From NCBI GenBank assembly GCA_017643395.1, contig JAEPNP010000007.1:1-64000 (forward strand): a DNA stretch of 64,000 bases. Direction: 5' to 3'. The notes under the pieces were generated by a model. The model saw nothing but the letters and a program-made list of their open reading frames with translations. It made no database searches and was not told the origin of the DNA. Below, piece after piece: positions 4,745 through 47,246 of the stretch. How positions within the stretch are numbered: the stretch's first letter is position 1; each line of letters starts with the position of its first letter. This stretch comes from Rhodothermales bacterium. GTDB taxonomy: Bacteria > Bacteroidota > Rhodothermia > Rhodothermales > UBA10348. A program made the position numbers and the translations under genes.

Positions 4745-5221
4745 TCAGGCGCGCGAGATCCCGGTGATCTCCATTTCTACCTTGCCGGCGGGCACCTTGA
4801 TAGCCACGACATCGCCCACTTCCTTGCCGAGCAGGCCCTTTCCGATGGGGCTCGTGACCGAGATGCGACCCTTGGTGATGTCAGCTTCTGCCGCGGAGAC
4901 CAGCGTGTAGGTCTGCTCCATGCCGTTGGCCTTGTTCTTGACCGTGACGTTGGAGAGGATGAATGCCTTGGAGGTATCCATCTTGCCTTCGTCCACGATG
5001 CGTGCGTTGGAGATGGTGGTCTCCATCTTGGCGATTTTTGCCTCGAGAAGTCCCTGAGCCTCCTTGGCCGCATCGTATTCCGCATTCTCAGACAGATCGC
5101 CTTTTTCCCGCGCTTCGGCGATAGCCTGCGAGATGCGCGGGCGTTCCTTGGTCTTCATCCAGCGGAGCTCGTCTTTGAGCTTCTGCAAACCGTCGGGCGT
5201 AAGGTAGACCGGCTTATCCAT
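4745..5221 (-). CDS. greA: Transcription elongation factor GreA
   Basis: 158 aa, the normal GreA length. The N-terminal coiled coil ([14 protein letters not shown]..., with [25 protein letters not shown]) has the acidic tip used to stimulate transcript cleavage in the RNA polymerase secondary channel. The C-terminal FKBP-like part ends [24 protein letters not shown] 5221 was chosen because homologues start just before YLTPDG; an in-frame TTG at 5287 would add 22 residues of low-quality sequence. Confidence 0.95.
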
Positions 5222-5427
5222 TGGAACCGTCGAGGAAGATTGAGACTGAGCCCCGATGCCAGCAGGAGCTCGAATGAGGATGGCCAATTACAAGAAAACG
5301 CCACGGCCCTGCGGAGCCCTGGCGAAATTGATGCCCTCAAACGCGATCTCGGCTGCGAAAGATCCGACTATCGGAACTGCGATCGGCAGGTCGGTTTAAG
5401 CAGTACACCCAGAGGTCAGTGAGACAT

Positions 5428-5763
5428 ATGAGTATCGACAAGTTCATGACGGGCGTGGTCGCGTTTGCCGGCGGTGTGGTTGCCGGGATCCTGCTCGCTC
5501 CACAGTCCGGCGCCGAAACCCGGGAGCGGCTGTCAGACGAGGCGCGCTCCCGCCTCAGCAGAATCGACGGCCAATTGGACGGGCTTGAGAAGCGACTGGC
5601 CGAGGTAAGCGCGCACCTGCGCGAAGCCAGCCATGACCTCGGGGAGCGAGTCAAGCACTCGACGGTGGATCAGGTTTTGCCCGATGTGCCGGAGGACCCG
5701 GAAGCGTTCGAGGTGGACCGGGACGAGGTTGCGTCTGACCTGAGGCACATGCCCCGGAAGTAG
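5428..5763 (+). CDS. YtxH-domain small membrane-associated protein
   Basis: 111 aa. One N-terminal hydrophobic segment (about residues 6-22, GVVAFAGGVVAGILLAP) is followed by QSGAETRERLSDEA, the YtxH signature, and then a charged, probably coiled-coil tail. YtxH proteins are general-stress or envelope proteins of unknown mechanism. A possible SD AGAGGT lies 11 bp before ATG 5428. A GTG three codons earlier is also possible. Confidence 0.75.
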   Translation: MSIDKFMTGVVAFAGGVVAGILLAPQSGAETRERLSDEARSRLSRIDGQLDGLEKRLAEVSAHLREASHDLGERVKHSTVDQVLPDVPEDPEAFEVDRDEVASDLRHMPRK

Positions 5764-6001
5764 TTCGGGCGATGGGGTCTTGGGCAGTTTGGAAGGCCCG
5801 GGTGTGCTGGGCGACGGGGTCTTGGTCCGGCTTGCAGCGAGGCGGCCGTTAGCGGCTTGGTCGGGGCTTGCAAGGCGCGGGGGCCGTCAGGGCAGACCGG
5901 CTAGTCCCAGGCATGCAAAGGCCCGGGGGCGATCGCGGAATCCTCGTCGCAACAACTACGTATTACAACTGCAATCCAATAAGTCTACAAGACATTTACA
6001 T

Positions 6002-6511
6002 ATGCCGTACCCCGAGCAGTTGGTCAGTCCCATGCGAGCCGAACTCACGCGTCTTGGCGTGGAAGAGCTCACGAATGCCGAGGAAGTAGATGACTTCTTC
6101 TCCGAGGCAGCCTCCGGCACGTCGGTTCTGGTTATCAATTCAGTGTGTGGCTGTGCGGCGGCGAACGCCCGCCCGGCCGTTGCCATGGTTCGCCAGCTCC
6201 CGGTGCAGCCCAATCGCTGGGGCACCGTTTTCGCCGGTCAGGATCTGGAGGCGACTGCCCAGGCCCGGATGCATCTGATGGGCGTGCCTCCGTCATCGCC
6301 GTTTATGGCCCTTTTCAAGGACGGCGATCCCGTGTTCGTGCTGGAGCGCCGCCACATTGAGGGTCGGAGCGCGCCGGCGATCGCCACGGATCTCGCCAAG
6401 GCTATCCAGAAATACGCGGGCGATGGGGCCGAGGCTTCCGGCGTGGAGACCCCCGAGGTCGAGCAAAAAGCTCCCGAAGGACTTCCGTCCACGTTCCGCT
6501 CGATTTTGTAG
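6002..6511 (+). CDS. BrxA/BrxB-family bacilliredoxin (YphP/YqiW)
   Basis: 169 aa. The CGC active site is at residues 49-51 in SVCGCAAANARP, diagnostic for this family. The family removes bacillithiol from S-bacillithiolated proteins. The core domain ends near residue 145; the remaining acidic tail is an extension compared with Bacillus proteins. ATG 6002 matches the family start (MPYPEQLVSPMRAEL). The open frame upstream back to 5780 is GC-rich and not protein-like. Confidence 0.92.
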   Translation: MPYPEQLVSPMRAELTRLGVEELTNAEEVDDFFSEAASGTSVLVINSVCGCAAANARPAVAMVRQLPVQPNRWGTVFAGQDLEATAQARMHLMGVPPSSPFMALFKDGDPVFVLERRHIEGRSAPAIATDLAKAIQKYAGDGAEASGVETPEVEQKAPEGLPSTFRSIL

Positions 6512-6829
6512 GGCGGTTTTGGGGCGTTGCGGACCGCGCTGGGCGTGTCGCTCTCGGTGCCGCAGGCGGAGGAGTGGCTTATGAGGCCCGCCCACGAGGC
6601 CGCAGAGTGGACTAGCGGGGGCTGATTCCACGTTTGACCGCTCGCTGGGGGGGCACGTGTCGAATCCGGGGCCCTATTCCACCTTGCAGTCCTGATGATG
6701 GCACCCGACGTGTAATCGCGCCCCCGAATTCCATTTGGGGGCCGCCGACCACCGAGGAAGCGCGATCAAGACGGGGCATTAAGCGGGGAACCGGCGCGCC
6801 GATACCCAAGGTGAAACGCCATCGCCCCC
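6512..6829. repeat. Gene-free region with three 51/52-bp-spaced repeat units
   Basis: The motif ATTCCA recurs at 6625, 6676 and 6728, spacings of 51 and 52 bp, each copy in a GC-rich context. The last copy lies inside a hairpin, CCCCC-GAATTCCATTT-GGGGG. No believable gene is seen. The spacing equals that of the clusters near 10.0 and 26.5 kb. Confidence 0.6.
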
Positions 6830-7081
6830 ATGCTAGCCCTAACCACGCAGGAAAAGTCGATTTATCCGGAGCCGACGCTCTCCGAGATGATGAATCTCGC
6901 CGTGGAGTTCGGCATCCTTGCTCGTGTGCGCAGGCTGAACGGTCGGGTGCGCATGGAAGTGCTGAACGAGCACTACGATGTCACGGAGGAAGAAGCGGGC
7001 ACCCTGGTCAAGGGACTGCTGCTTGGCTACTTCTACAACCAGAAGCGGGACGATCTCAGCCTCGCGCGCTGGGAGAAATAG
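6830..7081 (+). CDS. Small uncharacterised protein
   Basis: 83 aa, no recognised family. It is mainly helical and charged, with no signal peptide or membrane segment, and ends DLSLARWEK. Its amino-acid composition is protein-like and contrasts with the repeat region upstream. No clear neighbour association; it precedes the thiolase operon by about 210 bp. The true start could also be a few codons downstream. Confidence 0.5.
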   Translation: MLALTTQEKSIYPEPTLSEMMNLAVEFGILARVRRLNGRVRMEVLNEHYDVTEEEAGTLVKGLLLGYFYNQKRDDLSLARWEK

Positions 7082-7295
7082 GCACCCCAGCCAGGTAGCC
7101 GCTCCACTTCGACGGACCCCGTACCCAAGGCGCCCCGTCCGGCCCTGCGGAATCTCGCTTCGCTCCGCACGTCCAGCCGCGGACCCCATCGCCCGGAACC
7201 GCTTCCATCTTGGCCGGGAATCCACGCCACGCCGCTGAACCCGCCGCGCGCAGGCTCCGTTTAGGCCGGGTCATTTGAAACCCAGTCTGACAACC

Positions 7296-8486
7296 ATGCG
7301 GGATGTATTCGTGGTGGGTGCGGTGCGCACCCCGATTGGCCGTTTCGGCGGCGCGCTCAAGGACCATTCGCCGGTAGATCTGGCTGCGCATGTGATGCGC
7401 GGGCTGCTGGATCGCACATGCGTCGACGGTGGTGCGCTCGACATCTACTTGTCCGGCAACATCCTGCGGGCAGGGCACGGACAGCTGATTCCGCGACAGG
7501 CCGCGCTCAAAGCCGGCATCCCCGACTCCGTCGACGGCGTCGCGCTCGATATGGTTTGCTCCTCCGGCATGATGTCGGTGATGCAGGCCGCCACAATGAT
7601 CAAGGCCGGGGAGGCCGATCTGGTTATGGCAGGCGGCACCGAGTCGATGTCCGGAACTGGCTTCTACCTGAGCTCCCGTGCTCGATGGGGCTACAAATTC
7701 CTCATGGGCAACCCGGAGGGCCTGACCGACATCCTGCTGCACGACGGTCTGACCGACCCGATGTCTGGCGAGGCCATGGGCAGCCAGGCCGAACGCCTGG
7801 CCGGCGAAAAAGGCGTCACCCGCGACCAGGTCGACGCGATGGCTGCCGCCTCCCACCAGCGCGCCGCCAAGGCATGGGAGAACGGACACTTTGCCGATGA
7901 GGTGCTGCCTATTGAATACCGCGAACGCCGCAAAACGGTCACGCTCGAGCAGGACGAGGGCATTCGTGCCGACACCACCGCGGAATCCCTCGGCGGACTG
8001 CGTCCCGCGTTCGACAAGGAGGGCGTTCTCACGGCCGGCAATGCCAGCCAGATTTCGGACGGCGCCGCGACGCTACTGCTGGCCAGCGCAGACGCGGTGA
8101 AGGCGCACGGCCTGAAGCCGATCGCCCGATACAAGGCCGGCGCGTGGGCCGCGGGCGAACCCTGGCGATTCCCAGAAGCACCGATCCCCGCCGTCAAGCG
8201 CCTGCTCGACAAAGCCGGAGAGTCCATCGCCGACTACGACCTGTTCGAGAACAACGAGGCGTTCTCACTCAACAACGTGCTGTTCTGTGACCAACTCGGC
8301 GTGAAGCACGACCAGCTGAATGTGCACGGCGGCGCGGTTGCCCTCGGCCACCCCATCGGCTGCTCGGGAGCACGCATTCTGGTGACGCTGATCCACGCGC
8401 TCCGCTCGCATGACAAACAGCAGGGCCTCGCGGCCATCTGTCACGGCACCGGCGGCGGAACGGCGGTCACGCTAGAGCGGGCCTGA
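7296..8486 (+). CDS. Thiolase (acetyl-CoA C-acetyltransferase family)
   Basis: 396 aa, standard thiolase length. The acylated nucleophile is C88 in LDMVCSSGMMSV. Also seen are NNEAF, GGAVALGHPIGCSGAR with the catalytic His, and the C-terminal CHGTGGG with the second Cys. It either condenses two acetyl-CoA or performs the last step of beta-oxidation; direction cannot be told. ATG 7296 starts the canonical DVFVVGAVRTPIG. It is the first gene of an operon with crcB (gap 1 bp) and an acyl-CoA reductase. Confidence 0.93.
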   Translation: MRDVFVVGAVRTPIGRFGGALKDHSPVDLAAHVMRGLLDRTCVDGGALDIYLSGNILRAGHGQLIPRQAALKAGIPDSVDGVALDMVCSSGMMSVMQAATMIKAGEADLVMAGGTESMSGTGFYLSSRARWGYKFLMGNPEGLTDILLHDGLTDPMSGEAMGSQAERLAGEKGVTRDQVDAMAAASHQRAAKAWENGHFADEVLPIEYRERRKTVTLEQDEGIRADTTAESLGGLRPAFDKEGVLTAGNASQISDGAATLLLASADAVKAHGLKPIARYKAGAWAAGEPWRFPEAPIPAVKRLLDKAGESIADYDLFENNEAFSLNNVLFCDQLGVKHDQLNVHGGAVALGHPIGCSGARILVTLIHALRSHDKQQGLAAICHGTGGGTAVTLERA

Positions 8487-8487
8487 G

Positions 8488-8862
8488 GTGGCGAACATCC
8501 TCTGGGTCGCCTCCGGAGGCGCCATCGGGGCGGTCTTGCGGTATGTGACGGTCATGGGCGTGCACCGATTCGCGGGAACGGCCTTCCCGCTTGGCACGCT
8601 GGTAGCCAATGTCGCAGGGTCGCTGGTGATCGGGATCTTGTGGGCGATGGCGGAGAAAACGCCGCTCACACCTGCGGCCGCGTCGTTCCTGTTCATCGGG
8701 CTTTTGGGGTCTTTCACCACGTTCGCGACCTTTTCGATCGAGACCCTGGACCTGTTTCGGGACGGTCGCATGGGCCTCGCGGCCGCCAACATGCTTGCCT
8801 CAAACGTGCTCTGCCTCCTGGCGGCCTACGGGGGCCTGCGCCTCGGACACACGTGGGCATGA
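8488..8862 (+). CDS. crcB: Fluoride exporter FluC/CrcB
   Basis: 124 aa with four hydrophobic segments. Family signatures: GGAIGAVLRY (10-19), GTLVANVAG with N41, and GLLGSFTTFATFSIE (71-85) with the phenylalanines that line the fluoride pore. Dual-topology dimeric channel in the inner membrane. GTG start one base after the thiolase stop; its own stop overlaps the next gene (ATGA at 8859-8862). I see no fluoride riboswitch, as expected for an internal operon gene. Confidence 0.95.
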   Translation: MANILWVASGGAIGAVLRYVTVMGVHRFAGTAFPLGTLVANVAGSLVIGILWAMAEKTPLTPAAASFLFIGLLGSFTTFATFSIETLDLFRDGRMGLAAANMLASNVLCLLAAYGGLRLGHTWA

Positions 8863-38858: not shown

Positions 38859-39584
38859 GTGCGACTGCTCTGTATGGCCGTCAGTTTGGTCCTGACTGGC
38901 GTCCCGCTAGGATGCGATTCCAGCGCCATAGACGAAGAGCCTGACCGCCCGCCGGTGTGCACGGCAGGCCCTGACCACGGTTCACTCTGGCCGTTATCAG
39001 TTGGCAATTATTGGAGCTTTGAGTACTACTGGCGGGGTGCCCTGACAGATACTCTGCGGGTAGTCGTAGAGGAGGAGTACGCGGCCGGGCGCTTCGCTCG
39101 CGGCATCACGTTCCTGGTTCATCGCTACGGCCTGAGTGAGGCACTGCCTGCCAAGAAGGAACTCTGGACCAACTCAGAGCGAGGTCCCACCCAAGTCGGT
39201 TTCATCAGCAGGGGCGACACGGTCGACTACCTACCCCACTTTCGCTTCCCATACCCGGCACGTCGTTGGGAGGAATTCTACTCCTACAATTTCACCCGCG
39301 ATCTACGCACTGACGGACCTTGGGAAGTGGCAGATTCCTCACGATACGTCGTCGTGGCCACCGATGAGCAGACTGCCACAGTGCTCGGCCGGTTTCGAAG
39401 CCATGTCTATCGGCATCTCGACCGTCCCCTGGACGATGCCTTCGGTGACAGTGTGTACGTCTCGTATGCCCCCGGTCACGGGCTGGTCGGGATCTCGGCC
39501 TACAACGAGAGACAGGGCAGGACACGCGATCCCAACTGGCAATTCAAACTCGTTGATATCTGCATCAAGAAGCGGGCACCATGA
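38859..39584 (+). CDS. Predicted lipoprotein in the protease cluster
   Basis: 241 aa from GTG 38859 (RLLCMAVSLVLTGVPLGC), a lipoprotein-like signal with an imperfect lipobox. ATG 38874 is an alternative. The mature part starts LWPLSVGNYWSFEYYWRG, a form common in Rhodothermia lipoproteins, and is beta-rich. Its stop overlaps the metalloprotease start (ATGA), so they are translated together. Confidence 0.65.
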   Translation: MRLLCMAVSLVLTGVPLGCDSSAIDEEPDRPPVCTAGPDHGSLWPLSVGNYWSFEYYWRGALTDTLRVVVEEEYAAGRFARGITFLVHRYGLSEALPAKKELWTNSERGPTQVGFISRGDTVDYLPHFRFPYPARRWEEFYSYNFTRDLRTDGPWEVADSSRYVVVATDEQTATVLGRFRSHVYRHLDRPLDDAFGDSVYVSYAPGHGLVGISAYNERQGRTRDPNWQFKLVDICIKKRAP

Positions 39585-41428
39585 AACGACATCTCCTAGT
39601 TCTAACGGCAATGACCGTAGCCATGAGCTCAAACGACTCACTGGCCCAGGAATCGTCCGCGAGCCTTTTTGAGGTGCGGGTCGACGCGTTTGAAACGCTC
39701 GGCATCGATCAGGCCCACCGGTTCACGCGTCTTGCGCAGGCGAAGAACGCGGTCAGCGTCTCGGTCATCGACCTTGGCGATTGGAGCCGGGTGGCGAAGA
39801 AGCACTTCTTCTCGCTCTCTATGCCGGATGGTCGGCGGGTCCAGGTCCAAACTCGTGGAATCACCGAGCACGGGGCGGGCCGGATGACCTGGCAGGGACA
39901 CATCGGTGGGGATCCCACCCTCGTACGACTCAGCTTCGACGGCCTTGAGGCTGCGGGACGATTCTGGGTGGATGACCTCGAGTACAGACTCGAGAGCCTT
40001 GGTGGCGGCGAAATGGCGCTTGTCAAGACGTCCGTAATGTCTCCGCGCACATCAAGCAATCAAATGCGCACCGACACCAAGAGCGGACATGTCGCTGCCA
40101 AGTCCGCCTCAAACCTGTTGGCCGACATCGAAGTCATTGATGTGATGGTGGTCTATACGTCTGGAGCCGATGACGAGCCGGGGAATATTCTGACCTCCAT
40201 CGACAGCTTTGTTGACGAACTTAACACGGCGTTGGACAACGCCCAGCACCTGGACAGTACTCAGGTACGTCTGGTACATACCATGGAGGTGACAAAGAAC
40301 ACTTCCTGGGATATTTCGAGCGCTGTCGATGACCTCGTTGCTGGGAACGCTCCTTTCGAAAGCGTTGCCTCCGCGAGGACTACGCACGGCGCGGATGTAG
40401 TCATGCTCATTCACGACGACTTTACGGGCGCCAACGGCTGGGTCGCCGAAAACGAGGGAGACTCCTCAGAAGCCTTCGGAGCGGCGGAACTGGGCGAGGC
40501 AGAAGACAATGCGACCTTCGCGCACGAATTTGGCCACATCATCGGTGGTCTACACGATGTGGAGTGGTACAAGGACGCCTTCGGTCAGAACTGGACGGCC
40601 ACCACGGATAAGCACGCCATGTTGACGGTTGCGGAGACCCAGGGGACGCTCATGAACGCGACCGCACGAACAAATCGGGTCCTGAAGTTCTCCGACCCGG
40701 ACGACACCTTTGCCAATAGTGATCCTCTGGGCGGCGCCGACGAGGACGTAATCCAGGTATGGAGGGATCGCCGATCCACCGTCGCTGGATTCGTGGCCGC
40801 GGTTCCCGAAGATGAAGATGACCTGACGATCGACCTCGGTAGCGACACGGAGATGGAGTGGCACGAAAGCATCACGTTCGTGGCCGACCCGACCTATGAT
40901 CCATCCGAGGTAGATTGTGACGAGTGTACCTACATGTGGTATGAAAAGGACACCCCGACCGGGACCTACTACGATTCCGGTGTTTCGACTCAGACCTACT
41001 ACGATCTGTTCAGATGGACATCAGGACATGGCTTTGGAGTGGAAGTGTCTGATGGTGCGGATTCGGTAGAGGACTACATCTGGGTCGACTACTGTCCGGC
41101 GCCTTGCAGTGGCGGAGGCCCGAAGCGCGGGCCCGATTCGGAGGAGGCCGTTTCTCCAGATGCGTTCAGCCTTGAACTGGGAACCGCGTTCCCGAACCCG
41201 ATCCAGACGCGAACCGAGATTCCGTTCGCCATACCGGAATTGAGCCATGTCAGTATTGTCGTGTTTGACCTCTTGGGCAGAGCAGTAACGAGCGTCGTGG
41301 CGAGTACGCTCCCTCTTGGACGGCATTCGGCCATCTGGGACGCTTCAGAATACCCACCGGGGACCTACCTCATACGCATGCAGGCTGGCGATCGCGTGGT
41401 CTCCAACCTGGTTTCGGTTGTCCGCTAG
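39581..41428 (+). CDS. Secreted reprolysin-like metallopeptidase with T9SS sorting domain
   Basis: 615 aa. Signal peptide, a propeptide-like region (about 25-180), and a catalytic domain with HEFGHIIGGLHD: zinc ligands H315, H319, H325 and catalytic E316. The C-terminal NPIQTRTEIPFAIPE, VVFDLLGRAV, PGTYLIRMQAGDRVVSNLVSVV is a type A T9SS sorting domain. Predicted to be exported across the outer membrane to degrade external protein. Coupled to the lipoprotein upstream by a four-base overlap. Confidence 0.9.
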   Translation: MKRHLLVLTAMTVAMSSNDSLAQESSASLFEVRVDAFETLGIDQAHRFTRLAQAKNAVSVSVIDLGDWSRVAKKHFFSLSMPDGRRVQVQTRGITEHGAGRMTWQGHIGGDPTLVRLSFDGLEAAGRFWVDDLEYRLESLGGGEMALVKTSVMSPRTSSNQMRTDTKSGHVAAKSASNLLADIEVIDVMVVYTSGADDEPGNILTSIDSFVDELNTALDNAQHLDSTQVRLVHTMEVTKNTSWDISSAVDDLVAGNAPFESVASARTTHGADVVMLIHDDFTGANGWVAENEGDSSEAFGAAELGEAEDNATFAHEFGHIIGGLHDVEWYKDAFGQNWTATTDKHAMLTVAETQGTLMNATARTNRVLKFSDPDDTFANSDPLGGADEDVIQVWRDRRSTVAGFVAAVPEDEDDLTIDLGSDTEMEWHESITFVADPTYDPSEVDCDECTYMWYEKDTPTGTYYDSGVSTQTYYDLFRWTSGHGFGVEVSDGADSVEDYIWVDYCPAPCSGGGPKRGPDSEEAVSPDAFSLELGTAFPNPIQTRTEIPFAIPELSHVSIVVFDLLGRAVTSVVASTLPLGRHSAIWDASEYPPGTYLIRMQAGDRVVSNLVSVVR

Positions 41429-43312: not shown

Positions 43313-43343
43313 TGTTAACCGCCCGCCTCCAGCTCCAGTTGTA
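43313..43343 (+). promoter_or_regulatory. Putative ECF-sigma promoter before the S41-like peptidase
   Basis: TGTTAACC (43313-43320), 17-nt spacer, GTTGTA (43338-43343), followed by TGACC. Same elements and exact spacing as the two promoters between the sigma operon and the trypsin-like gene. Predicted transcript start lies about 45 nt before the ATG at 43394. Confidence 0.7.
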
Positions 43344-43393
43344 TGACCGAGAAGTCGGCCAAGAGGGCCGTCTAGTCAGCAACGCAGGAGACC

Positions 43394-44794
43394 ATGCTGG
43401 AATCGGCAACCAGGGACACGGATCACACTCACTCACGCGCAAAGGACGGGCCCTACGCCAGATCGCACTTCGATCCGCCCGGGAAGTCGACAGCCGTCTG
43501 CCTCGTGCTCGCCTTCCTGCTCGCGTCCGCATGCACCAACAACGCACAGGTAATGAGCCCCCGCGTTGCCGCAAAGTGGCAAGCTGAGCTCCATACGCTC
43601 CACGACAGCCTGCTCGCTCGTCACGTGGACCTCTACCACGAGACTTCGCGTGAGGAGTTTGAGCGGGCGGTGGCGGCGATCGAAGCCAGGCTCCCGTCCG
43701 TCAGCGTCAACGAGGCACTCGTCGAGTTCGCCCGGCTCATTGCGCTGGTGGGCGATGGGCACACCTCATTCTACGCAGGTGATCAGCGGCGAAAAACCTT
43801 TGGGTTCATACCGCTTCACCTGTGGTCCTTCAGCGATGGGCTCTATGTGACGGCAGCACCGGTCGAGTATCGACACTTGGTGGGCAAACGCATCACCGGC
43901 ATCGATCAGACCCCAATCCAGGAGGCGATCCGCCGGGTCAAGAGTACGATCGGTGTCGACAACGAAAAGGGGTACGACTACGCAGTGCCGTTCGATCTAT
44001 TGCGGCCCGAGTTGCTGCACGCGCTGGGGATCGCGACTTCAGCAGACACTGTTCGATTCGAGTTTGACGGGGGAGTGTCCGAGCCCTTTGCAACGATTCC
44101 ATTGAATGAGTACAACAAGGGCGACTACCGCACGGCCAACGGCGTCTACGCCGACGGCATCCCTCCAAGCCGCAGGCTGGAATACCTTTTTGCCACGCCG
44201 CTGTCGCTTCCGCACCTCCTCGAACGGAAATACTACTGGTGGGAGTACCTAGAGGAGGAGAACGCCATCTTCTTCCAGTACAACACCTGCTGGAACCAGA
44301 GGGATCGGCCGACTGTGGCCGAGATGGCGCAGGAGATGTTCGCCTTCATGGACGCCAACCCGGTCGAGAAACTGATTATCGACCTGAGGCAAAACACGGG
44401 GGGTGAGCCCGAGACCGCGAGAGCTTTAATCGACGGCCTCGCGGCGCGGCCTGAGTTCACGGAGGAGGGGCGGCTCTTCGTGCTTGTCGGCCGACGAACA
44501 TTCTCGGCCGCGGTCACGAATGCGGCAGAATTGCGAAGCCGAGCGAATGCCCGCCTGGTGGGAGAGGCTCCTCGTGGCAAACCCAACAGTCCCAGTGAGG
44601 GCCGCGACGTGGACTTGAAGCGCACGGGGATTTGGCTGACCGTCTCGACGCAGTTCGTGGAGCGGGATCCGGCACTCGGGGACGCCGACTTCCTGCCCCT
44701 CGAGATCGAGGTAAATCACACCTTCGCGGCATATAGGGACGCGGTCGATCTGGACCTGCGGGCCGCCCTGAACGCGGGCGTACTCGACATCTGA
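43394..44794 (+). CDS. S41-family (tail-specific/CtpA-like) peptidase lipoprotein
   Basis: 466 aa. A 30-residue polar N-terminus, then a lipoprotein signal (LVLAFLLASAC). S41 features: LIALVGDGHTSFYAGD, LIIDLRQNTGGEPETA and S371 in VGRRTFSAAVTNAAEL, the candidate nucleophile. No clear PDZ domain. AGGAGA just before ATG 43394 supports this start. A sigma-type promoter lies 50 bp upstream. Confidence 0.8.
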   Translation: MLESATRDTDHTHSRAKDGPYARSHFDPPGKSTAVCLVLAFLLASACTNNAQVMSPRVAAKWQAELHTLHDSLLARHVDLYHETSREEFERAVAAIEARLPSVSVNEALVEFARLIALVGDGHTSFYAGDQRRKTFGFIPLHLWSFSDGLYVTAAPVEYRHLVGKRITGIDQTPIQEAIRRVKSTIGVDNEKGYDYAVPFDLLRPELLHALGIATSADTVRFEFDGGVSEPFATIPLNEYNKGDYRTANGVYADGIPPSRRLEYLFATPLSLPHLLERKYYWWEYLEEENAIFFQYNTCWNQRDRPTVAEMAQEMFAFMDANPVEKLIIDLRQNTGGEPETARALIDGLAARPEFTEEGRLFVLVGRRTFSAAVTNAAELRSRANARLVGEAPRGKPNSPSEGRDVDLKRTGIWLTVSTQFVERDPALGDADFLPLEIEVNHTFAAYRDAVDLDLRAALNAGVLDI

Positions 44795-44802
44795 GGCCTT
44801 GC

Positions 44803-45390
44803 TCAAATAAGCTCGCCATCGGGACGTCCGGCGGATGGTTTCCGCGAATCTCTGGCTTCAAAGATCTTCCGAAGCCGTCCTCTCGCCCTGCTGAGCAACA
44901 CGCGCACGCTCAACTTGCTGTAGCCAGTGAGATCTGCAATCTCGGCATGGGTGTAGTTCTCCGCGTGAGCCAGCCAAAGCAGCGTGCGCTCGCGTTCCTT
45001 TAGCATGCCCATCGCCCGCTGAAGGTCCATCGGGACCTCCGGGTGAGTTTCCTTCAGGGGAGCGGATCGATCTTCTTCGAACGCGGCGATCGTCCTGGAA
45101 TACCTGGCAAGACTCTTCCGACGATCCTTTAACAGGTTCGCGGCGATCCGAAACGCGTAGCGGCGCAGCTGCTCCGGCGTCCGGGTGTCACTTGAGGTGT
45201 AGAAGGGCGATCTCCAAAGGCGGATCATCGCTTCTTGCAGGACATCCTGCGCCGCCTCGGCATCCTGCGTGCCGGCCAGAATAAAGCCGCGCAATCGGGG
45301 CACGAGGTCCTCGTAGACCTCCCGAAAGGAGTCATCGCGAGTCCCTGGCGCACCAGCCCCTGTTGCGTTCACCGTGCCGCCGTCCGACAC
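44803..45390 (-). CDS. ECF-type RNA polymerase sigma factor
   Basis: 195 aa. Region 2 (FREVYEDLVPRLRGFILAGTQDAEAAQDVLQEAMIRLWRS) and region 4 (MGMLKERERTLLWLAHAENYTHAEIADLTGYSKLSVRVLLSRARGRLRKIF) are complete. No C-terminal extension. GTG start five bases after the membrane-protein gene. The order membrane protein then sigma is the reverse of most sigma/anti-sigma pairs. Confidence 0.92.
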   Translation of the reverse strand: MSDGGTVNATGAGAPGTRDDSFREVYEDLVPRLRGFILAGTQDAEAAQDVLQEAMIRLWRSPFYTSSDTRTPEQLRRYAFRIAANLLKDRRKSLARYSRTIAAFEEDRSAPLKETHPEVPMDLQRAMGMLKERERTLLWLAHAENYTHAEIADLTGYSKLSVRVLLSRARGRLRKIFEARDSRKPSAGRPDGELI

Positions 45391-45395
45391 GCCCC

Positions 45396-45863
45396 TCAGG
45401 AGACGCGCTTCCGAGAGAGGAGGGCGAGTTTCGCGAAGTCCCCGACGCCGAGCCCGAGCCCGACGATCCCCGCCACCGCCAACAGTAGCTCAAATGGAAT
45501 GCCAGCCACGAACATCATGAGGCTGCCGTCGATCGCAACCTTCAGAGCAACGGCGAGGGTCACCAGCATGCCCCCGATCAGGGTCTTTCTGGTCGCTGCA
45601 CCCACCTCCTCAGCGTGGATCCGCTCAGGTGTGCGCGGATCCTCCAGCATGTGCCAAAGCGCCTCCTTGCCCTGTCCTGTACGAATCATCGATTCCAGGA
45701 GTGGAGGATCCGTCTTGTCCAGGAAGGCCCTGATGGAGCGCTGCCGGGAGAGTTGAGCGGCCAGCATTCTGTGCTGCCTGCTGCGGATCGCGAACAGGGC
45801 GACCACAATGATGCCGATCACCTCGGCCAGGACGACGGGCAGGGAAAGCAGGACTTCAGACAT
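45396..45863 (-). CDS. Membrane protein upstream of the ECF sigma factor (candidate anti-sigma or sensor)
   Basis: 155 aa. One N-terminal membrane segment (about 6-26), a cytosolic part with RTGQGKEALWHMLEDPRTPERIH, and a C-terminal hairpin of two membrane segments (about 96-140). No zinc-finger anti-sigma motif is seen. Co-transcription with the sigma gene and the self-type promoter upstream suggest it controls or is controlled by that sigma factor; this is inference. Confidence 0.7.
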   Translation of the reverse strand: MSEVLLSLPVVLAEVIGIIVVALFAIRSRQHRMLAAQLSRQRSIRAFLDKTDPPLLESMIRTGQGKEALWHMLEDPRTPERIHAEEVGAATRKTLIGGMLVTLAVALKVAIDGSLMMFVAGIPFELLLAVAGIVGLGLGVGDFAKLALLSRKRVS

Positions 45864-45941
45864 GGTGGTATTCGATGTAGGCGGGGCTCGGCGGCCTGCG
45901 CGAGGGCTGGACGGCGCCTCGTCGGGCAAGAGCGCCATGGT

Positions 45942-45972
45942 ATTAACTGTCGCCGGGCGAGATTGGTTAACA
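45942..45972 (-). promoter_or_regulatory. Putative autoregulated promoter of the sigma operon
   Basis: On the minus strand: TGTTAACC (45972-45965), 17-nt spacer, GTTAAT (45947-45942). Matches the -35 box exactly and the -10 box in part. It drives 45863-44803, giving a leader of about 70 nt. Confidence 0.65.
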
Positions 45973-45985
45973 TCCTCCGGGGCTC

Positions 45986-46016
45986 TGTTAACCGTGAGCA
46001 CACGAAACAGGTTGTA
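45986..46016 (+). promoter_or_regulatory. Putative ECF-sigma promoter before the trypsin-like gene
   Basis: TGTTAACC (45986-45993), 17-nt spacer, GTTGTA (46011-46016). The -10 lies inside a perfect palindrome GGTTGTACAACC (46010-46021). Back-to-back with the sigma operon promoter 13 bp away. Confidence 0.7.
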
Positions 46017-46051
46017 CAACCAGGATCGTCCAGCTATTGAAGGAAGACTCG

Positions 46052-46873
46052 ATGCCGGAATTGCGCAAAAGGGGTTCGAACCGCAACCGCCAACAGGCGA
46101 TGGTGCGCGTGGCCGTTCTCCCGTTGATCATCTTCGTCACGTCCGTCCTGGCGACCATCCCATCGGCCACTCCGATCATTATTCGGCATGATGTGAGCGA
46201 TGAGGACTACGTGGCCCTGGCAGACAGCCTGGACCTGAGCGCGGCCGTGGTCAGGTTCACCAGGACCGATATGGCCGGCACGCTCATCGCGCAGGACTGG
46301 ATACTGAGCGCAGCCCACGTGGCGCAGGAGGTTTCGCCGGGCGGGTCTCTCTTGTGGGGATCCGGAGATTCGCTTCGTGTCGAACGTGTCGTGCTCCACC
46401 CGTTGTGGCTGGAAGAGGGTTTCCCGCACGATATCGCCCTCATCAAGCTCACCACTCCGGTAGAGGGCGCCGTCACCATCCCGCTCTATCTCGACTCCGA
46501 CGAGGAGGGCCGTCTGGTGACGCTCATTGGAAACGGTGATCTGGGCGATGGCACGACAGGTCCCACGGGCAATGATGGCCGCTTCCGGGCCGCGACAAAC
46601 CGCATCGACAATCTTTCAGATTCATGGCTGGCGTGGCGATTCGATGGACCGAATGATCCCGGGACGACACCGATGGAGGGTATCAGCGGCCCCGGAGACA
46701 GCGCGGGACCCGCCTTTATCCAGCGGGATGGACGTTACTTCGTTGCCGGGGTGAGCTCAGGTCAGGACACCCAGGCTACCGGGGGCCGGGAGGGCCGGTA
46801 CGGGGTGACGGAATACTACACCCGGGTGTCTGCTTACTCGGACTGGATTGCGAGCGTTGTGGCGAGCTTCTGA
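46052..46873 (+). CDS. Secreted trypsin-like (S1) serine protease
   Basis: 273 aa. Uncleaved or long signal (VAVLPLIIFVTSVLATIPSA). Catalytic triad H89 (SAAHV), D127 (HDIALIKL), S217 (SGPGDSAGPAF). ATG 46052 has GGAAGA upstream. Diverges from the sigma operon and carries a matching promoter. It has no T9SS sorting domain of its own; an orphan one is encoded 77 bp downstream. Confidence 0.9.
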   Translation: MPELRKRGSNRNRQQAMVRVAVLPLIIFVTSVLATIPSATPIIIRHDVSDEDYVALADSLDLSAAVVRFTRTDMAGTLIAQDWILSAAHVAQEVSPGGSLLWGSGDSLRVERVVLHPLWLEEGFPHDIALIKLTTPVEGAVTIPLYLDSDEEGRLVTLIGNGDLGDGTTGPTGNDGRFRAATNRIDNLSDSWLAWRFDGPNDPGTTPMEGISGPGDSAGPAFIQRDGRYFVAGVSSGQDTQATGGREGRYGVTEYYTRVSAYSDWIASVVASF

Positions 46874-46949
46874 GGCGTTTCGCCACCGAGAGCCGGCAGC
46901 TTTCGGCGGGTACGTTGTACCATCGGCGCACCAACTTGCAAGCCGACAC

Positions 46950-47246
46950 ATGATTCTTCGGTGCAGCCGCCATTCCTGGGCCACGGCCTTGTTGATTCTG
47001 GTTCTGGCACCATCAACCGCAGCAGTCTATCCGAATCCCTTCCGGTCCGAATTGAACGTGCAGGTCCCATCGGGATGGCGATCGGCGGATATCATTGTTT
47101 TCGACGTCCTGGGCAGGCAAATCTCACAAAAAGCCGCCGCGGCGGTCAGATCATTCGATGGCGCGCACATGCCGCCAGGTGTCTATTTCGTAGTAGTTGA
47201 CTCAGGGGATCGACTACTGCGGACCACAGCGGTCAAGCTCGACTAG
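46950..47246 (+). CDS. Orphan T9SS sorting domain with its own signal peptide
   Basis: 98 aa. A signal peptide (MILRCSRHSWATALLILVLAPSTA) runs straight into a type A T9SS sorting domain: YPNPFRSELNVQVPSGW, IIVFDVLGRQI, PPGVYFVVVDSGDRLLRTTAVKL. No cargo domain exists between them. It lies downstream of the trypsin-like gene. It may be a remnant of a larger protein or a separately exported tail. Confidence 0.7.
   Translation: MILRCSRHSWATALLILVLAPSTAAVYPNPFRSELNVQVPSGWRSADIIVFDVLGRQISQKAAAAVRSFDGAHMPPGVYFVVVDSGDRLLRTTAVKLD

Follow-up and report, generated by a model that had tools for sequence, protein, structure and literature searches.

Promoter boxes around an ECF sigma factor gene in a Rhodothermales bacterium suggest a compact, self-regulated regulon with relatives in Acidobacteriota

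Do three promoter-like boxes around one extracytoplasmic function (ECF) sigma factor gene mark a regulon that this sigma factor itself controls? The question is raised by a stretch of 64,000 nt of a Rhodothermales bacterium genome (assembly GCA_017643395.1, contig JAEPNP010000007.1, positions 1 to 64,000, forward strand), hereafter the window, in which the sigma factor gene stands in an operon with a membrane-protein gene between two protease genes. The comparisons reported here make it likely that this cassette is a compact, positively autoregulated ECF sigma regulon, in which a conserved core is combined with exported cargo that is exchanged; the positive autoregulation is suggested by a box lying 5′ of the sigma factor's own operon. 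The features of the cassette are as follows.

43313..43343, plus strand: candidate ECF-type promoter box TGTTAACC-N17-GTTGTA, 5′ of the S41-like protease gene (sequence reading and genome scan)
43394..44794, plus strand: S41-family peptidase, 466 aa (Pfam Peptidase_S41, 1.7e-9)
44803..45390, minus strand: ECF sigma factor, 195 aa, with regions 2 and 4 only (Pfam Sigma70_r2, 1.3e-8; Sigma70_r4_2, 2.1e-11)
45396..45863, minus strand: three-helix membrane protein, 155 aa, encoded first in the sigma operon; putative anti-sigma factor or sensor (AlphaFold2 model and homology)
45942..45972, minus strand: candidate ECF-type promoter box TGTTAACC-N17-GTTAAT, 5′ of the membrane-protein/sigma operon (sequence reading and genome scan)
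45986..46016, plus strand: candidate ECF-type promoter box TGTTAACC-N17-GTTGTA, 5′ of the trypsin-like protease gene (sequence reading and genome scan)
46052..46873, plus strand: trypsin-like (S1) protease (Pfam Trypsin, 1.2e-14; elastase chains down to 1.2e-8)
46950..47246, plus strand: short protein, 98 aa if the start is at 46950 (Por_Secre_tail, 1.6e-9 on the open reading frame (ORF) 46848-47246)

The three boxes were read in the sequence just as a first-pass annotation of this DNA had given them, and its judgement that they exceed chance agreed with the finding of 3 exact matches in the window versus 0 in 100 dinucleotide shuffles. When the whole genome (4,506,337 bases in 21 contigs) was scanned with the exact pattern TGTTAACC-N17-GTTNW, the same 3 sites were returned without mismatch; the pattern is not common, and all of its exact copies fall within the cassette, where they span 2.7 kb. 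Given about 4 sites genome-wide, a rough estimate puts clustering of this kind by chance at the order of 1e-6. A position weight matrix (PWM) scan of the window gave the boxes scores of 27.1, 27.1, and 20.6, with 9.2 for the next best site. Their layout is that expected of ECF promoters, with a putative -35 element containing AAC and a putative -10 element containing CGT or GTT at 16–17 nt, 5′ of the sigma factor's own operon. Canonical EcfG promoters have AAC at -35 and CGTT at -10 according to an excerpt of PMC8103513, and it is on this pattern that the boxes may be read as ECF promoters.

A second, independent cassette was found at locus L041 of Rhodothermales bacterium IP29b_bin.67, where the sigma factor is 58–61% identical to that of the window. 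The same four genes occur there in mirrored order (trypsin-like protease, divergent membrane protein and sigma factor, convergent S41 protease), and boxes with 17-nt spacers precede all three transcription units, two of them being exact and one carrying a single-base change. The changed box, at 10011-9982 on the minus strand before the S41 gene, ends in GTTGGT; the box before the trypsin gene, at 7382-7353 on the minus strand, is orthologous to the 45986-46016 box of the window. The letters of the spacers are unlike between the two cassettes while the boxes are kept. At a third Rhodothermota locus, L042 (sigma factor identity 43%), TGTTAACG-N17-GTTGTA sits 125 nt 5′ of a probable lipoprotein gene, and the row (5181-8823) continues with a beta-lactamase-fold hydrolase, a membrane protein of this type, and the sigma factor, with no proteases behind the box; it closes with a 107-aa protein in which two helices are predicted and the zinc motif is absent. 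Among named records, the closest to the window sigma factor are from Rhodothermota. A membrane-protein profile built from the window, L041, and L042 matched 3 of 244 Rhodothermia genomes, which were those three, and the sigma factor at E 1e-12 matched 6 of 119 genomes, the window's own genome being included in both counts. Two congeneric genomes gave neither a sigma nor a membrane-protein match; comparison of the region with them yielded only scattered matches of 63–91% identity, and no empty site was identifiable.

The next relatives of the window sigma factor were found in Acidobacteriota, with 34–35% identity over the alignment. In 5 of the 5 loci with upstream DNA (L043, L044, L045, L047, and L048), TGTTAACC-N17-GTTGTA lies 51–67 nt 5′ of a membrane-protein ORF, which is followed by the sigma gene; locus L046 ends before its upstream region, and its genome shows no site. 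A second, divergent box is present in L043–L045. It precedes a gene with an exported-looking product in L044 and L045, the L044 product having Pfam TPR repeats, and L043 ends before the gene behind its divergent box. The only other site in the genome of Edaphobacter aggregans (G471) is located on another contig, 205 nt 5′ of the gene for a TPR protein that is 29% identical to the TPR protein of L044 (E 8e-35). Across eight genomes, TGTTAACC-N17-GTTGT occurred 0 to 2 times each, and the backwards-read control never. The -35 elements of the divergent sigma-operon and trypsin promoters (45965-45993) are 13 bp apart in the window; the corresponding distance is 20 in L041 and 40 in L044. With the elements so close, both promoters are probably not occupied at once, and competition for polymerase between the trypsin gene and the sigma operon is probable.

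On a larger scale, a sigma profile (A4, E 1e-35) gave 43 matches in 40 of 247 Acidobacteriota genomes, and the surroundings of 40 of these matches, which come from 37 of the genomes, were examined. Of the 40 loci, 26 have GTTAAC in the interval from 400 nt 5′ to 120 nt 3′ of the start of the upstream ORF, a few of them possibly by chance. GTTAAC followed 14–17 nt on by CGT was found within a 330-nt stretch in 24 of the 40 loci versus 29 of 3556 tiled windows; the latter were taken from both strands of the same loci, and most of the 24 are among their 29 positives. CGT followed at 16 nt in 16 loci and at 15 nt in 8. Misses include L135, whose upstream ORF had been given too early a start, and L141, where the -10 element lacks the C. 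The -10 variants in Acidobacteriota include CGTTGTA, CGTATTA, CGTATAA, CGTTATA, and others; because of this variation, the family motif is written here as TGTTAACC-N15/16-CGTNNTA, and for the wider family CGTNNTA appears to describe the -10 element better than the GTTNWN of the first-pass annotation. With this exact family pattern, the 40 sigma-carrying genomes gave 11 sites, every one of which lies at a sigma operon, whereas the backwards control gave 5.

The search was extended to 396 Acidobacteriota genomes, these 40 and another 40 without a sigma match included, and 37 exact sites were found in 32 of them. Of the 37, 23 stand directly 5′ of a family membrane-protein/sigma operon (20/30 and 3/7 in two batches). 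Twelve of the 37 sites were already known from the two 40-genome scans, and 11 of the 25 new ones lie at the operon; 12 of the 23 operons at sites had played no part in model building. Among the 14 sites away from the operon, 10 are covered by some ORF of at least 90 aa and 7 by an ORF of at least 370 aa, a weak measure, since 12 of the 23 sites at operons are themselves overlapped by chance ORFs. Two of the 14 may mark further targets, in genomes that also have the operon box: the site in L223 (1482, minus-strand count) is 50 nt 5′ of the gene for an exported propeller-like protein, and that in L218 (1501, minus-strand count) is 50–100 nt 5′ of the gene for an adaptor-like membrane protein, both products being named by eye.

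When 60 rows were placed in a quick maximum-likelihood tree, a split with an SH-aLRT of 98 separated the 48 sigma factors of this set from 12 other ECF sigma factors. The 48 comprise 45 from Acidobacteriota and 3 from Rhodothermota, with loci chosen by similarity, and the 12 comprise 8 from the window's class (2 of them from its own genome) and 4 of the GFO_1088 family; 27 of the 57 forks are unresolved, and row L047 was badly trimmed. The grouping of the sigma factors and the homology of their membrane-protein partners across phyla (see below) both mark out a TGTTAACC lineage consisting of a three-helix membrane protein and an ECF sigma factor. The motif thus appears, from these comparisons, to belong to an ECF lineage occurring in two phyla, Acidobacteriota and Rhodothermota, and this lineage may already be numbered in the 2021 ECF classification. 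The proposal of the first-pass annotation that the sigma factor drives itself and two exported proteases is strengthened by the placement of the boxes, the independent cassette, and the operon boxes of Acidobacteriota, with the qualification that the proteases were recognized as exported by eye; the sequences compared likewise support the boxes themselves, the operon, and the repeated association of a box with a membrane protein and a sigma factor.

Several counts weigh against this reading of the boxes. GTTAAC was lacking near the operon start in 14 of the 40 profile-selected loci, and 29 of the 40 sigma-carrying genomes had no exact site. The full pattern gave 6 sites versus 9 backwards in 244 Rhodothermia genomes, and the 37 sites of the 396 Acidobacteriota genomes compare with 34 backwards, a count not above background, so that the case rests on placement. 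In the 40 genomes without a sigma match, the raw count was 1 site versus 4 backwards; that single site (L186, 1501-2955) precedes a family membrane protein, an ECF sigma factor, and a third gene, the sigma factor being merely below the profile threshold, which indicates that the lineage is wider than counted. Single full-box sites occur in four other Rhodothermia genomes, three of them inside ORFs of 261, 362, and 911 aa and the fourth (L089) in a gap with no same-strand ORF of at least 80 aa after it within 1.5 kb. In the window's own genome, a looser pattern (spacer 16–18, GTT only) gave 4 matches, as did its backwards-read control, and with up to 2 mismatches there were 185 matches versus 153 for the control, which is near background. 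The fourth loose match (L001) has an 18-nt spacer and lies inside a 228-aa ORF; when its context and those of eight one-mismatch matches were read, all 9 were inside ORFs of at least 175 aa on either strand, and 6 of them in ORFs of at least 375 aa. One of the nine, L015, is also 41 nt 5′ of a 206-aa ORF whose start looks TetR-type by eye, and it was not counted as a target. Since the looser patterns fall to background, weaker targets may exist elsewhere in the genome; they are indistinguishable from background, and the regulon defined by exact boxes need not be complete.

These raw numbers, close to the backwards control in many genomes, are what would be expected if the boxes were chance matches or a repeat family. 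Such an origin is hardly credible when set against the exact clustering in the window, the boxes at the same places in L041 with different spacers, and the 23 of 37 sites that stand before the operon. The palindromic form of GTTAAC, and the pair of boxes standing back to back between divergent genes, would also suit a dimeric transcription factor that counts the sigma gene among its targets. We regard this as quite improbable, because a second element, which is GTT here and CGT in the wider family, follows at a nearly fixed distance across spacers whose letters vary, the S41 box is single, and in both phyla it is an ECF sigma operon that recurs beside the box. In the favoured explanation, that of an ECF sigma regulon, the sigma factor would bind the boxes and direct RNA polymerase to TGTTAACC-N16-nGTTGTA promoters, which in their exact form are found, in this genome, only 5′ of its own operon and the two genes for exported proteases.

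How the sigma factor might be held in check turns on its partner. The AlphaFold2 model of the window membrane protein (mean pLDDT 74, pTM 0.49) predicts three long helices and two short helices between membrane helices 1 and 2. To judge by its charged ends, this inter-helix stretch faces the cytoplasm, as does the C-terminus; the outer loops are predicted to be very short, leaving almost no periplasmic part. The long forms of Acidobacteriota have about 120 more residues between the first, signal-like helix and the next. The membrane proteins of the two phyla are homologous by hhalign (probability 96.8, E 2.8e-10), with the match around LLDRFSSSEELLEYLQTEAGRRFL of the Acidobacteriota profile; about 40 Acidobacteriota sequences were needed for a convincing result, and smaller profiles gave just 10.8 percent. 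An hmmsearch of three sequences gave 3.4e-15 for L042 and 1.2e-5 for the window, and plain hmmsearch with the Acidobacteriota membrane-protein profile found no match among the window ORFs, the membrane protein included. The membrane partner of L048 (7025-7945) has a faint C-terminal match to Pfam DUF6249 (E 0.0096, 16.3 bits, cut-off 33).

Is this protein the anti-sigma factor? Speaking against it, neither Pfam nor NCBIfam gave an anti-sigma domain match for the membrane protein, Foldseek of its model against PDB returned nothing at E 0.001 or better, and at least 29 of 47 related loci have, 3′ of the sigma gene, a separate Hx3Cx2C protein that would be the more orthodox anti-sigma factor (the set of 47 includes L041 and L042, both without the Hx3Cx2C motif). 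These third-gene proteins of Acidobacteriota have mostly two predicted helices. The window membrane protein has neither the domain match nor a cysteine pair by which class I (ASD/ZAS) anti-sigma factors are known. It could therefore be a sensor or helper, the sigma factor being held by an unlinked anti-sigma factor or by none and governed mainly by the strength of its own promoter; this reading, possible though doubtful, draws on the loci with a zinc anti-sigma motif gene and on the Acidobacteriota operons in which the membrane protein coexists with it. Against it stands the arrangement in Rhodothermota: there is no room for a zinc anti-sigma gene beside the window sigma gene, which is convergent with the S41 gene with 8 nt between their ends, or in L041, where the sigma and S41 genes overlap, yet the membrane protein is retained, with 55% identity between the two cassettes. 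With such a gene missing beside the window sigma gene, the genome not having been searched for an unlinked anti-sigma gene, we infer that the membrane protein is the likeliest anti-sigma factor, which is the weakest step of the argument. We tentatively suggest that it could represent an undescribed anti-sigma class that senses the membrane itself and replaces the zinc-finger anti-sigma factor in Rhodothermota cassettes, with core and promoter code fixed across two phyla and exported cargo swapped.

As an anti-sigma factor, the membrane protein, whose gene shares the sigma operon, would in the resting state hold the sigma factor at the inner membrane via the short helical segment that is probably cytoplasmic. 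Release would follow a signal from the envelope or the membrane; the freed sigma factor would amplify expression of the operon that encodes it, and both proteases, trypsin-like and S41-like, would then be made and exported. In Escherichia coli, proteases cleave RseA twice, first at a periplasmic site; with almost no periplasmic part in the window membrane protein, RseA-like cleavage from outside seems unlikely.

A self-regulated ECF sigma factor with a membrane partner and exported targets is of a known kind. The envelope stress system RpoE-RseA of E. coli, described in part in PMC8103513, is similar in having an autoregulated ECF sigma factor whose targets include an exported protease. EcfG of Alphaproteobacteria, according to the same paper, shares with the cassette AAC at -35, CGTT at -10, and autoregulation, but serves the general stress response by partner switching, whereas the cassette has few, local exact-box genes and a membrane-protein partner. 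ECF270 resembles the Acidobacteriota relatives in its Acidobacteria model protein and zinc anti-sigma (ZAS) partners, and is listed, in the part of PMC8999054 concerned, among sigma factors with soluble anti-sigma factors. It differs from the present case in that ECF270 has a ZAS gene encoded with the sigma factor, whereas in the window no gene lies between the sigma gene and the convergent S41 gene; the Acidobacteriota Hx3Cx2C proteins, moreover, mostly have predicted membrane helices. In excerpts of two other papers, the motif appears as an unassigned Sinorhizobium meliloti element (PMC3616915) and as primer sites (PMC3188799). No described counterpart was found for the TGTTAACC code, for the family of three-helix partners, or for a protease cassette that lacks the zinc anti-sigma factor, the 2021 ECF classification being outside this comparison.

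In size and domains (regions 2 and 4 only, about 170–200 aa), the window sigma factor is an ECF (group 4) sigma70 protein; its best solved chain was SigL (6dv9_F, 1.3e-9), and RpoE chains were also matched. The best-scoring named ECF family by E-value was NCBIfam NF058625, sigma_PG0214/GFO_1088 of Bacteroidota, with 74.8 bits. Membership was rejected, as this score is below the curated cut-off of 130, another ECF sigma factor of the same genome fits better (128.6 bits), and the neighbours differ in the four family loci read; NF058625 thus stands as the best named match, but one below cut-off and with other neighbour proteins. Membership had also been hinted at by the S41 protein, which faintly resembles the peptidase family GFO_1087 (0.001, 18.1 bits, cut-off 455).

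The trypsin-like protease has the triad His89, Asp127, and Ser217 and can be placed by sequence in trypsin family S1; by eye, its N-terminus carries a hydrophobic export signal. In the S41 peptidase, Ser371 and Lys396, as placed by eye, fit what we take to be the spacing of the S41 Ser/Lys dyad. Its N-terminus has a hydrophobic stretch ending in LLASAC and, judged by its likeness to a lipobox, may be that of a lipoprotein; a strict lipobox regular expression gave no match. The 46950-47246 protein, directly 3′ of the trypsin gene, consists of nearly nothing but a C-terminal tail for type IX secretion and a signal-like stretch, and the two genes may share a transcript. At 39581-41428, 2 kb from the cassette, a reprolysin-like metalloprotease is encoded that also has a type IX secretion tail; the PWM scan found no box before it.

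The finding offers a testable promoter code, TGTTAACC-N15/16-CGTNNTA, together with a defined target set, for an ECF lineage of Acidobacteriota and Rhodothermota. Because the predicted regulon is small, the whole circuit (sigma factor, partner, three promoters, and two proteases) could be moved into a laboratory strain for testing, and the role of the membrane partner is directly testable, there being no zinc anti-sigma gene beside the sigma gene. With relatives of both switch and promoter in a distant phylum, the control signal looks old while the controlled genes change. If this is true, the lineage would represent an exchangeable envelope-response cassette, whose cargo may be proteases, a beta-lactamase-fold hydrolase, or TPR or propeller-like proteins.

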